Shown in pieces: positions 25,258 to 29,287 of a stretch of DNA of 64,000 bases. How positions within the stretch are numbered: position 1 is the stretch's first letter; each line of letters begins with the position of its first letter. This stretch comes from Bauldia sp. (lineage in GTDB: Bacteria > Pseudomonadota > Alphaproteobacteria > Rhizobiales > Kaistiaceae): NCBI GenBank assembly GCA_026126065.1, contig JAHCJY010000003.1, forward strand, positions 62,001 through 126,000, read 5' to 3'. Made by a program: the position numbers and the translations under genes. Under the pieces are notes generated by a model, which saw only the letters and a list, made by a program, of their open reading frames with translations, was not told the DNA's origin and did no database searches.

Positions 25258-25659
25258 ATGATCGGACTCGTACTCGTCACTCACGGCCATCTGGCCGATG
25301 AGTTCCGCTCCGCCCTCGAACACGTTGTCGGCCCGCAGAGCCAGATCGAGACCATCTCGATCGGGCCCGAGGACAACATGGAGACGCGCCGGTCGGATAT
25401 TGTCGCGGCCATCGAGCGCGTCGATACAGGCAGCGGCGCGATCGTGCTGACCGATATGTTCGGCGGCACGCCGTGCAACCTTGCCATCTCCGTCATGCAG
25501 TCGAGCCGCGTGGAGGTGATCGCCGGCATGAACCTGCCGATGCTGATCAAGCTCGCCCGCATTCGCGAGGAGACGCCGCTGTCGGAGGCGATCAACCTCG
25601 CCTACGAGGCGGGCCGGAAATACATCAACGTCGCCAGCCAGGTCCTCGCCGGGCAATGA
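25258..25659 (+). CDS. PTS EIIA component of the mannose family
   Basis: 133 residues. The phosphorylated residue is His9 in MIGLVLVTHGHLADEF. TDMFGGTPCNLAIS and MNLPMLIKLARIR are family hallmarks. Alone, without EIIB/C/D partners nearby, it is a regulatory rather than transport component, as in the nitrogen-related or carbon-sensing PTS of alphaproteobacteria. The gene starts 118 bp after hprK and overlaps HPr by four bases. EI (ptsP/ptsI) is not in the window. Confidence 0.93.
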   Translation: MIGLVLVTHGHLADEFRSALEHVVGPQSQIETISIGPEDNMETRRSDIVAAIERVDTGSGAIVLTDMFGGTPCNLAISVMQSSRVEVIAGMNLPMLIKLARIREETPLSEAINLAYEAGRKYINVASQVLAGQ

Positions 25660-25946
25660 CGGGTGACGACGGGCGGCCGCTCATTCGCGACCTCACGATC
25701 GTCAATAAGCGCGGCCTGCACGCCCGCGCCTCGGCCAAGTTCGTGCAGACGGCGGAAAAGTTCGACGCCTATGTCACCGTCCTCAAGGACGGGCACTCGA
25801 TCGGCGCCGGCTCGATCATGGGCCTCATGATGCTCGCCGCCGCCCCCGGCACGGTGATCCGCCTCGTCGCCAGCGGCCGCGAGGCCCGCCCGGCGCTCGA
25901 CGCGCTCGAAGCCCTCGTCGCCGACAGGTTCGGCGAGGAGGAGTAG
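25656..25946 (+). CDS. Phosphocarrier protein HPr
   Basis: 96 residues. HPr receives phosphate from enzyme I on His22 (RGLHARASAKF). The HprK target region AGSIMGLMMLAA places the regulatory Ser at about residue 53. The ATG overlaps the EIIA stop (ATGA), so the two are co-translated. The N-terminus is a few residues longer than classical HPr, which is common in the class. It ends the chvI-chvG-hprK-EIIA-HPr unit. Downstream begins a gene-free stretch leading into the accessory island. Confidence 0.94.
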   Translation: MTGDDGRPLIRDLTIVNKRGLHARASAKFVQTAEKFDAYVTVLKDGHSIGAGSIMGLMMLAAAPGTVIRLVASGREARPALDALEALVADRFGEEE

Positions 25947-26493
25947 CTTCTCCGCAACCCCGGGGGGACAGGTCGCTTGCCGGACGGTTGCATCCCAAGC
26001 CGCGGCGCGCGACCGCACTGGAGGCTATCGTTCTCGAATTCTGTCGCTGTCTCACCCGCGATTTTTTTTATGCGGTCGGCGACGCTGTTGGCGGGCCTCC
26101 GGTGACCGGCGAGGTACGCGCCGTCGACCTCGATAGCCCGAAAGCTGAAGGCCGACCTTTCTCTGAGGCGACGGCTTCACGGGGTGTGTGTGCCAGAACG
26201 AAGGCCGTCTTGTGCTGGCGTTCGAGGTCGCGGCTCAGTTGGAGCACTACGAGCCCTTGGCGCTGTCGGAGAAGGTCACGACTGCCAAAGAGTAGTCGCG
26301 AATGGGGCCCTTGCGGTTCTCGAGGATCGTGCCGGACGTGACGCTGCAATGGTTTCTGCACGCGCCGCATTTCCAGACCGGACGCGTGCCAAGCGCGGTG
26401 ACGCGGAGGCGGCTGCAGCGTGGGCCTTGCGCGCCTTGTCAAGCTGAAATGCACTGGATACGATGATTCCGACACCGAATCGGATGACTCCGT
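25947..26493. other. 547-bp gene-poor stretch between HPr and the accessory island
   Basis: No gene can be supported. A run of eight T (about 26064-26071) and several short frames are present. One frame near 26180-26295 reads QNEGRLVLAFEVAAQLEHYE and closes at a TAG; another near 26300-26450 reads FSRIVPDVTLQWFLHA. They look more coding-like than random GC-rich frames but lack a start and a family, so they may be decayed remnants. No tRNA, att-like repeat or insertion sequence end was seen. Confidence 0.4.
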
Positions 26494-26727
26494 ATGGCGA
26501 GCATAACCCGGGATTGGCAATCGCAGGTTAAAGGCATCCTCAAGGCGGAACTCAAGCGACGGAATCTTAGCTATGCCGACCTGGCCGAGCGGCTGGGCGC
26601 CCTTGGCGTTAAGGACAACGAACGCAATATCTCCAACAAGATATCACGTGGTACCTTCTCTGCCGCCTTCTTGGTGCAATGTTTGGAAGCGATTGGTGCA
26701 CGAACGATCCATCTCGATGATACATAG
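26494..26727 (+). CDS. Small HTH-like protein (DUF6471-like)
   Basis: 77 residues. The sequence WQSQVKGILKAELKRRNLSYADLAERLGALG followed by NERNISNKISRGTFSAAFLVQCLEAIGA matches what I know of DUF6471 proteins. These have a small XRE-like helical domain with the characteristic NKISRGxFSAxF turn. It could be a DNA-binding regulator of the downstream genes, but this is inferred. The next gene begins 86 bp downstream on the same strand. Composition is less GC-rich than the core genes, consistent with acquired DNA. Confidence 0.7.
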   Translation: MASITRDWQSQVKGILKAELKRRNLSYADLAERLGALGVKDNERNISNKISRGTFSAAFLVQCLEAIGARTIHLDDT

Positions 26728-26813
26728 GCGTCGGTGCGAAGCTCGCGGCCTCGCGGCGGCTCTCTGTCGCGACGACCGGACGGCTCCGCGAGGGAAATGG
26801 CGTCGGGGGTCGA

Positions 26814-27608
26814 ATGTCAGTGGCTGACGATCTGTTTCCCGCTTCGCCACGGGTCATATACGCACGCGCGCCGCTGACCGAAGTGGTCTGCCAGTTGCGG
26901 TTTCCTCCGATCCTACGGATCGAGGCCGGCCCGCCAGCGGATTTCCAGGATCGCATCCGAGCGACCTTCCCTCTTTTGGAACGCGCCACCCAACAAACCA
27001 ACCTCGTCGACGGCCTGCCGGCAGACCTCGCACGACTGCTGAACGTTCCAGGGGCCGGCTCCAGCTATGTCTTCAAGACTGAAGATCAGAAGCATACTAT
27101 TACATTGGCGCCAGAGTGGCTAGCGCTAACAACAACAGAATATCAGCGCTGGGAAGGCTTTAGAAGCCTCCTTATCCCGCCTTTGCAAGCTCTTATCGAA
27201 ATATACAAGCCAAGTTTCTTCAGTCGAATTGGATTACGATATCAGAACTCTATACACAAACCTTCGATGGAACTGGATACCCATCGCTGGGCCGAATTGT
27301 TAATCCCCGAGGTGCTTGGGGCGCTTGTTTTGCCCCAGTTCGAATCCAATATCATGGAGATCAGGAAGCGAATTAGATGCCGTCTGCCCGATGGTAGTGG
27401 ATCCGTGTTTATTCAGCACGGCTTCGGTGGTGATGGCGGACGTGATAAAGACACGTACCTCCTTGACTTTGACTTCTATGCCGACAAAACCGAGGTCCAA
27501 CATGCCGTCTCAGTTCTTGACGACTTCCATACCAGAGCCGGAAGAGCATTTCGGTGGTGCATCACTCCGACGCTTCACGAAAGACTTGGGCCACAGCAAT
27601 TGGACTAG
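26814..27608 (+). CDS. TIGR04255-like protein of unknown function
   Basis: 264 residues. The N-terminus reads FPASPRVIYARAPLTEVVCQLRFPPILRIEA, which I recognise as the signature opening of the TIGR04255 family. The middle contains ITLAPEWLALTTTEYQRW and FFSRIGLRYQNSI, also typical. No membrane segment is visible. The family is scattered among bacteria, usually in accessory regions, and its biochemical function is unknown. Local GC (about 47-50% in lines counted by hand) is far below the approximately 70% of flanking core genes, and codon use includes rare AT-ending codons. It probably forms a unit with the following small gene. Confidence 0.75.
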   Translation: MSVADDLFPASPRVIYARAPLTEVVCQLRFPPILRIEAGPPADFQDRIRATFPLLERATQQTNLVDGLPADLARLLNVPGAGSSYVFKTEDQKHTITLAPEWLALTTTEYQRWEGFRSLLIPPLQALIEIYKPSFFSRIGLRYQNSIHKPSMELDTHRWAELLIPEVLGALVLPQFESNIMEIRKRIRCRLPDGSGSVFIQHGFGGDGGRDKDTYLLDFDFYADKTEVQHAVSVLDDFHTRAGRAFRWCITPTLHERLGPQQLD

Positions 27609-27627
27609 CTTTCCGGGGACGATCGAG

Positions 27628-27927
27628 ATGCTTACGATCGACCACGGGCCACACGGTTCCGCTCACTTCCGCACGACGGTCGAGGTGACCGGCGACACGA
27701 TCGCGTACATGCCATTCTCAGCGATGCAACGCCTTGTCTGTCTCTATTTCCTGGGACGAATGGACGAGAGCGCCTTAGATGAAGCCTGCGTCACGTTGCG
27801 TGAGCTCTATAGTCATCAGGAAGAGCGCCTGAAGGCCGATATCGATGCGCCGCGCGATTTCCATCGCTTGGCTGCGAAGCCTGCACTGCGAACAATCGAA
27901 CGGCAGCCATTCTATATCAGCGACTAG
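27628..27927 (+). CDS. Small unknown protein coupled to the TIGR04255-like gene
   Basis: 99 residues from an ATG with a good ribosome site (ggggac, seven bases upstream), 19 bp after the preceding stop. Longer in-frame starts exist (27502) but would overlap the previous gene by over 100 bp. The sequence (AYMPFSAMQRLVCLYFLGRMDESALDEACVTLRELYSHQEERL) is largely helical, followed by KPALRTIERQPFYISD. No family is recognised. Position and composition tie it to the TIGR04255-like gene. Confidence 0.6.
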   Translation: MLTIDHGPHGSAHFRTTVEVTGDTIAYMPFSAMQRLVCLYFLGRMDESALDEACVTLRELYSHQEERLKADIDAPRDFHRLAAKPALRTIERQPFYISD

Positions 27928-27941
27928 AATTTTGGATATGC

Positions 27942-28568
27942 TTGGTGGTTGACGGCAAGAACATAGCGCCGACAGAGGCGAATGTCGCGGTAATCGTTCG
28001 CAATTGCATCTATACTACAAGTGAACTAGACGCCGAGCCGAGACAGTCAGAAATAGTAACGGGGATTGCTCAGCACATTTTTGACCCTGTATCTGGGCGT
28101 GTCGATGTCCTGCGTCACAACTACGCTGTAATACTTAGCCAAGATTGCGACCTTCTTCAGGACTACAATACTCGGCAGAAAGGGGAACAATCCGATCTGA
28201 ATAGCGTATTGGTCTTTGAGGCAGAGCCATGGTCCAAAGTAAAAACATTGGTATCTGGCCGAGATATTTGGAAGCCGTTGGGGCAAAACAAGAATGAACG
28301 CTACCACTTGTTAGAAGAAGTGCCAGCCGCGTGTGACTGCGCAGGCGAAGGACTGCCGGCATTGGTAATCGACTTCCGAAAACTATTCGCTCTTTCTGCA
28401 ATTGAGATTGGCCGGCAGTTTGGATTGGGAAAGGACGGCGCGCAGCGACGCTGCCGTATGGTTGCCCCCTACCGGGAACATTTGCAGAGCCGTATGGCCT
28501 TCTATCTACAGCGTGTCGGGATTCCTGAACCGCACAGGGTCCCGGCAGCTGTGGTACCGACCGGGTGA
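27942..28568 (+). CDS. Unknown protein with SQDCDLL motif in the low-GC island
   Basis: About 208 residues. The start is uncertain: TTG at 27942 or GTG at 27945. The central motif NYAVILSQDCDLLQDY is the most striking feature; similar Ser-Gln-x-Cys-Asp-Leu segments occur in uncharacterised accessory proteins. A SEIVTGIAQHIFDP segment precedes it and LPALVIDFRKLFALSA follows. There is no signal peptide or membrane segment. It begins 14 bp after the previous stop, so it probably belongs to the same transcript. No function can be assigned. Confidence 0.6.
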   Translation: MVVDGKNIAPTEANVAVIVRNCIYTTSELDAEPRQSEIVTGIAQHIFDPVSGRVDVLRHNYAVILSQDCDLLQDYNTRQKGEQSDLNSVLVFEAEPWSKVKTLVSGRDIWKPLGQNKNERYHLLEEVPAACDCAGEGLPALVIDFRKLFALSAIEIGRQFGLGKDGAQRRCRMVAPYREHLQSRMAFYLQRVGIPEPHRVPAAVVPTG

Positions 28569-28618
28569 GACGGCTACATTAAATTCCGCGTTGTTCCCCG
28601 GATTCGCACCGCGACTTC

Positions 28619-29287
28619 ATGCGCCTCCTTGCCATCGACACCTCGCTCGAGGCCTGCGCGGTCGGCATCGCGGCCGGTGACGCGGCGCGCATTCTCCGAT
28701 CGGAGACGATCGGGCGCGGCCACGCGGAACGGCTGTTCTCGATGATCGCCGAAGCGCTCGACGCGGCGGGCATGACGATCGGCGACATCGACCGCTTCGC
28801 CGTGACCGTGGGACCGGGCTCGTTCACCGGCATCCGCGTCGGTATCGCCGCCGTGCGCGGCTTTGCCCTTGCCACCGGCAAGCCCGCAATTGGCCTCTCG
28901 ACACTCGCCGTCCACGCCGCGGCGGCGCGGGAGACGGCCGGGGCGGTCCCGGTCCTCGCCGCGCTTCCGGGCAAGGGCGGAGACGTGTTCGCCCAGCTCT
29001 TCGCCGGCGACGGGTCACCCGCAGCGCCCGCGGGGAACGGCCCCGCCGCGCCATTCGCGGCCGCGGCGATCGCGGCGCATGCTGTCCTGGCCGGCGCGGG
29101 ATCGGACCTCGTGGCTGCCGCCGGCGCGGCCGGAGCACCCGTCATCCATCGCGCGTCCGCGCCCGACCTTGCCGTCTTCGTCCGCCTTGCGCTGGCCACG
29201 GAGCCGACCGGCGAGCCGCCACGGCCGCTGTACCTCCGCGCGCCCGACGCCGCCCCGGCGGCGCCGGGGCCGGCGATGCGACCATGA
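28619..29287 (+). CDS. tsaB: tRNA t6A biosynthesis protein TsaB
   Basis: 222 residues. TsaB is the partner of TsaD in making N6-threonylcarbamoyladenosine at position 37 of ANN-decoding tRNAs. The ASKHA fold opens with MRLLAIDTSLEACAVGI, and VGPGSFTGIRVGIAAVRGFALAT is diagnostic. The C-terminal half is rich in Ala/Pro and degenerate, as usual for TsaB. It restarts core, high-GC sequence immediately right of the accessory island and overlaps rimI (ATGA). Confidence 0.94.
   Translation: MRLLAIDTSLEACAVGIAAGDAARILRSETIGRGHAERLFSMIAEALDAAGMTIGDIDRFAVTVGPGSFTGIRVGIAAVRGFALATGKPAIGLSTLAVHAAAARETAGAVPVLAALPGKGGDVFAQLFAGDGSPAAPAGNGPAAPFAAAAIAAHAVLAGAGSDLVAAAGAAGAPVIHRASAPDLAVFVRLALATEPTGEPPRPLYLRAPDAAPAAPGPAMRP

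Follow-up and report, generated by a model that had tools for sequence, protein, structure and literature searches.

TIGR04255 with exchangeable partner genes: a candidate toxin-antitoxin-like cassette in a genomic insertion of Bauldia sp.

A probable conflict module of three genes, toxin-antitoxin-like and with a TIGR04255 protein as its constant controller, lies on a segment inserted between two core genes of Bauldia sp.; we put the probability of this reading at roughly 0.6. The segment lies in the window analyzed here, by which we mean the whole stretch of 64,000 nucleotides. A constant gene, a small partner specific for each effector class, an exchangeable effector with a toxin fold, and the setting of such cassettes in prophages and plasmids together point to this reading. 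The cassette family is widespread in bacteria, plasmids and phages and has apparently not been described.

Between the core genes HPr (25656-25946) and tsaB (28619-29287) the earlier note had placed four low-GC genes of the plus strand, and all four are intact, co-oriented and located just where it put them. They code for an HTH-like DUF6471 protein (26494-26727, 77 aa), a TIGR04255 protein (26814-27608, 264 aa), a middle protein (27628-27927, 99 aa) and, from a TTG start, a protein with the motif SQDCDLL (27942-28568, 208 aa), referred to below as the CD protein. The first gap is 86 bp, and the next two, 19 and 14 bp, are as had been claimed. The GC content of these genes is 0.52-0.58 (GC3 0.54-0.68), against 0.71 for HPr (GC3 0.94) and 0.76 for tsaB (GC3 0.87). 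Curated models bear out the identities proposed for the first two proteins: Pfam PF20075 for DUF6471 (E 1.4e-30) and NCBIfam TIGR04255.1 for its neighbor (E 2.5e-44), the latter with 152 bits at a cut-off of 30 and with model positions 2-252 of 252 covered. The 99-aa and 208-aa proteins had no match to any Pfam, NCBIfam or PHROG model.

Is the cassette foreign to its surroundings, as had been supposed? In a genome of the same genus (G008, locus L132) HPr and tsaB are adjacent; blastn found the flanks 85% and 79% identical and positions 25948-28595 missing, so that, compared with that genome, this segment of 2.65 kb (GC 0.56) is inserted. It contains a 17-bp pair resembling terminal inverted repeats, whose left arm, TGTCGCTGTCTCACCCG (26042-26058, plus strand), is complementary at 15 of 17 positions to the right arm (28562-28578, minus strand); the right arm includes the stop codon of the CD-protein frame. 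An equally good pair occurred in one of 300 randomised end zones, which makes the observed pair rarer than chance. The candidate 8-bp target duplication, TCGAATTC / TTAAATTC, is imperfect (6/8 identical). No transposase frame was recognised in the inserted segment, a search of the genome for other elements with the same ends found none, and where the inverted-repeat pattern matches the genome a third time (L140), no element could be recognised. The first part of the insertion (25948-26493, about 550 bp), ahead of DUF6471, is without a recognisable gene, occurs only once in the genome and is possibly a remnant.

The four genes had been taken for one compact unit. This holds for the last three, which recur in the same order in unrelated bacteria and mobile elements, but not for DUF6471. 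The order TIGR04255, small protein, SQDCDLL protein was found in Chloroflexota and Elusimicrobiota (a scan with the 208-aa protein gave these two genomes of other phyla), on a Methylocystis plasmid (the one replicon from the plasmid search) and in two viral contigs, L008 (49% identity) and L085. In both contigs relatives of the middle protein occupy the equivalent position (phmmer 1.6e-15 and 7.7e-8), so the place of the small gene beside the putative toxin gene, 14 bp upstream in the window, is kept in relatives. With P0002 as sole query no match was obtained among the viral contigs, and the L008 CD protein had none in the phage collection. On the Methylocystis plasmid (L004:5442-6662) a gene for AbiJ-type abortive infection lies immediately upstream of the cassette. 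DUF6471, in turn, was seen in the window only: a survey of open frames at TIGR04255 loci detected it near no other locus surveyed, and a four-gene unit was rejected. It is a passenger of the insertion outside the recurring unit. Neither of the refuting outcomes named in the earlier note, a gene set that fails to recur or frames broken into remnants, was seen; a remnant was likewise rejected, since the frames are open and the set of TIGR04255, middle and CD genes is conserved.

The 208-aa protein is rare: one of 28 genomes of the family has it, and so do 3 of 398 genomes of the phylum, where two of the three cases are fusions with a receiver domain. In two operons that also encode a histidine-kinase-like ATPase, L006:1471-3305 (G095) and L007:42-1935 (G038), a CD-like domain follows a fused receiver domain; the G095 operon adjoins an EcoRII restriction enzyme and has weak PADLOC similarity to PDC-M60B. 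TIGR04255 itself is present in 30 of the 398 phylum genomes (7.5% of sampled Pseudomonadota) and in none of 14 control genomes. At nearly all loci inspected, in genome and plasmid neighborhoods, a middle gene and then a third gene lie downstream of it in the same orientation. By a loose automatic rule, two same-strand open frames in series, 47 of 52 loci qualify, an approximate figure as the rule also accepts chance frames (e.g., at L047); three of the five loci that fail it (the window, L008 and L085) are intact sets missed by the way the rule picks frames. On a Rhizobium plasmid (L059:1672-6747) the cassette lies downstream of multiubiquitin, ThiF and DUF6527 genes and also near a gene for 7-cyano-7-deazaguanine synthase.

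The third genes fall into unrelated classes: CD-motif, PemK/MazF, HEPN, HNH, papain-like, and two mutually related classes without a known family. The CD-motif proteins form three subclasses whose profiles show them to be related (E 1e-5 to 2e-4). At L044:4976-6351 (G208) TIGR04255 is followed by a 95-aa protein and then by a genuine PemK/MazF toxin (Pfam 1.1e-18; PDB MazF 8.5e-6). The HEPN gene matches PF05168 (E 4.2e-6); the HNH genes of L089-L091 were assigned by eye, that of L090 matching PF01844 at E 0.00043, slightly below the family cut-off, and the papain-like class was also assigned by eye (GLTCATF). Middle genes of different effector classes are unrelated, with one exception, the pair of related third-gene classes, whose middle genes are related as well; Xre-like HTH domains are frequent among the middle genes of one class. 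On the TIGR04255 tree, a quick tree with long branches and uncertain individual joins, the effector label needs 15 changes, with a minimum of 8 for nine classes and 39 after shuffling, and the well-supported group of eight rows that includes the window contains three effector classes.

As TIGR04255 is the only gene constant across these unrelated third genes, it could itself be a versatile antitoxin, the middle protein then being an adaptor or a part of the effector. Such promiscuous neutralization of many toxins by one antitoxin domain has a precedent in Panacea (PMC8832971). We regard this as unlikely, because a change of third gene comes with a change of middle gene, the behavior expected of cognate antitoxins.

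What kind of effector could the CD protein be? A MazF-like barrel was guessed from its sequence (QGDI, IVLSN-CD and the following strand) ahead of any structure model. The AlphaFold2 model (pLDDT 81, pTM 0.75) gave Foldseek matches whose ranks 1-15 were all MazF, with the CptIN toxin next (E 0.009 to 0.06; best row E 9.2e-3, prob 0.99). VIA-align placed the model at Z 9.8 to MazF-mt1, with 117 of 117 MazF residues aligned, and at Z 9.1 to CcdB. The last protein of the window is thus predicted to have the MazF/CcdB fold, an SH3-like toxin barrel; MazF itself is a toxin that cuts RNA. In sequence, neither it nor three other members of alignment A1 matched the PemK/MazF family PF02452 in Pfam, and profiles of CD sequences did not match the one PemK in the data set. 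That the likeness to MazF is one of fold alone (Foldseek E about 0.01) counts against a conflict module. MazF toxins have a catalytic Arg just before the strand that corresponds to the CD-motif strand, and an Arg at this place is not constant among the CD proteins, as aligned by eye. These proteins might therefore be MazF-like in fold and yet non-toxic, with the cassette serving mobile elements in regulation or in some other accessory role: catalytic residues of the MazF type are not evidently conserved, and CD-like domains fused to receiver domains may be signaling outputs. We consider this the least probable of the alternatives weighed here, given that the equivalent position is also held by a genuine PemK toxin and by HEPN and HNH nucleases.

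The AlphaFold2 model of TIGR04255 is confident (pLDDT 89) and has a duplicated alpha/beta fold. Its best structural matches, to guanidino kinases, TBP and AdoMetDC (Z about 8), are unspecific, which also counts against our reading. A kinase role suggested by the guanidino-kinase/McsB rows of Foldseek (E about 1e-4, Z about 8, rmsd about 4) was dropped on the tool's own warning and because the conserved positions, judged by eye, are unlike a kinase site; these rows, and those of TBP and AdoMetDC likewise, were treated as a common arrangement. SecB was absent from the rows inspected, which is not decisive. The last point bears on a module of the toxin-antitoxin-chaperone (TAC) type, in which TIGR04255 would be a dedicated chaperone folding an aggregation-prone antitoxin (the middle protein), so that a free chaperone would be needed to keep the toxin in check. 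The cassettes resemble such modules in having three components and swapped toxins, many SNTCD-class and Xre-class middle proteins have an N-terminal hydrophobic stretch visible by eye, and chaperone-addiction segments function when grafted onto the N terminus of unrelated proteins (PMC5105189). Most of the hydrophobic peaks, however, do not exceed those of shuffled sequences, and several classes lack them, as does the middle protein of the window, so chaperone addiction through such segments is without general support; nor did a resemblance of TIGR04255 to SecB show in the rows inspected. We judge a TAC-like module improbable, no better placed than a versatile antitoxin.

The cassettes also occur in phages. 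In all 32 viral contigs found by the SNTCD-class CD gene alone (25 distinct CD proteins, several of them near copies), TIGR04255 lies upstream at a distance of a few hundred bp, which leaves space for a small gene. One nearly identical cassette is present in 92 of 5426 complete E. coli genomes; its genes code for TIGR04255 (WP_000907077), a protein of 114 aa and one of 204 aa, and the CD protein of this E. coli prophage cassette is WP_000069422. In the two E. coli lambdoid prophages that were read it lies between antiterminator Q and holin, opposite to the late genes (L128:12001-13728), and in Pseudomonas phage Dobby (Peduoviridae, Citexvirus) it adjoins the portal gene (L125:1030-2786); these are typical positions of accessory genes. 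The open TIGR04255 frame of Dobby (1030-1851) exceeds the annotated gp01 (1483-1854). In phage VW-6S the cassette lies directly behind the CI repressor.

Three observations strengthen the idea of defence or regulation put forward in the earlier note: the last protein is predicted to fold like MazF, third genes are exchanged between loci, and prophages carry the cassette at accessory-gene positions. To judge from sequence comparison and structure models, phage defence is plausible for the cassette, or it may serve only as an addiction module that maintains its element. In the conflict module that we prefer, the CD protein, with its predicted fold, would be the toxic effector, and the small middle protein, from its position and its change together with the effector class, would be the dedicated partner and neutraliser. 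TIGR04255, kept while effector and partner are swapped, would most likely control the pair, by stabilising, by sensing or by both. A failure of this control, for example when a phage infects or the element is lost, would free the effector and stop growth of the cell.

More broadly, TIGR04255 may mark widespread, undescribed and modular three-component systems of immunity or addiction, in which one protein of duplicated alpha/beta fold controls interchangeable pairs of partner and effector (MazF-fold CD, PemK, HEPN, HNH, papain-like and others) and which prophages, phages and plasmids spread; we offer this tentatively, at slightly less than even odds. In PADLOC-DB 2.0.0 (2023) the TIGR04255, middle and third proteins of the window had no match beyond a weak one to DpdE (E 0.011), three other TIGR04255 proteins had none, and other third genes had weak matches only. 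A search of the open literature by name (TIGR04255, DUF6471, E. coli accessions) found no paper, although newer or subscription reports may exist. A family hitherto named only as sporadic and without assigned function would gain a testable role, as head of a cassette with exchangeable toxin-like effectors, and its occurrence in E. coli prophages makes this role directly testable in laboratory strains. If true, this would be a new mode of toxin control, and phage-encoded defence would probably gain a new class.

How does the cassette compare with the closest known systems? Its likeness to the type II toxin-antitoxin systems MazF, PemK and CcdB consists of the predicted fold of the CD protein, the small partner just upstream and the genuine PemK that is third at one TIGR04255 locus. 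In contrast to MazF, the CD protein is about 90 residues longer, has no detectable sequence similarity and carries a conserved Cys-Asp motif in place of evident MazF catalytic residues; to the type II scheme the cassette adds a third component, TIGR04255. With the TAC systems (Mtb TAC, CmdTAC) it shares three genes and interchangeable toxin families, but its constant protein is not detectably SecB-like and no chaperone-dependence region was apparent from sequence. As with Panacea antitoxins (PMC8832971), a single constant domain is tied to many unrelated toxins; here, in contrast, the constant domain (about 250 aa) is encoded upstream by a gene of its own, and a class-specific middle gene is added. 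Finally, P2-like phages of E. coli have an anti-phage hotspot (old/tin) bordered by the portal gene (PMC9122126). The Dobby cassette, beside its portal gene, lies at the border of that hotspot, which holds defence cassettes; the TIGR04255 cassette is a candidate for such a role.
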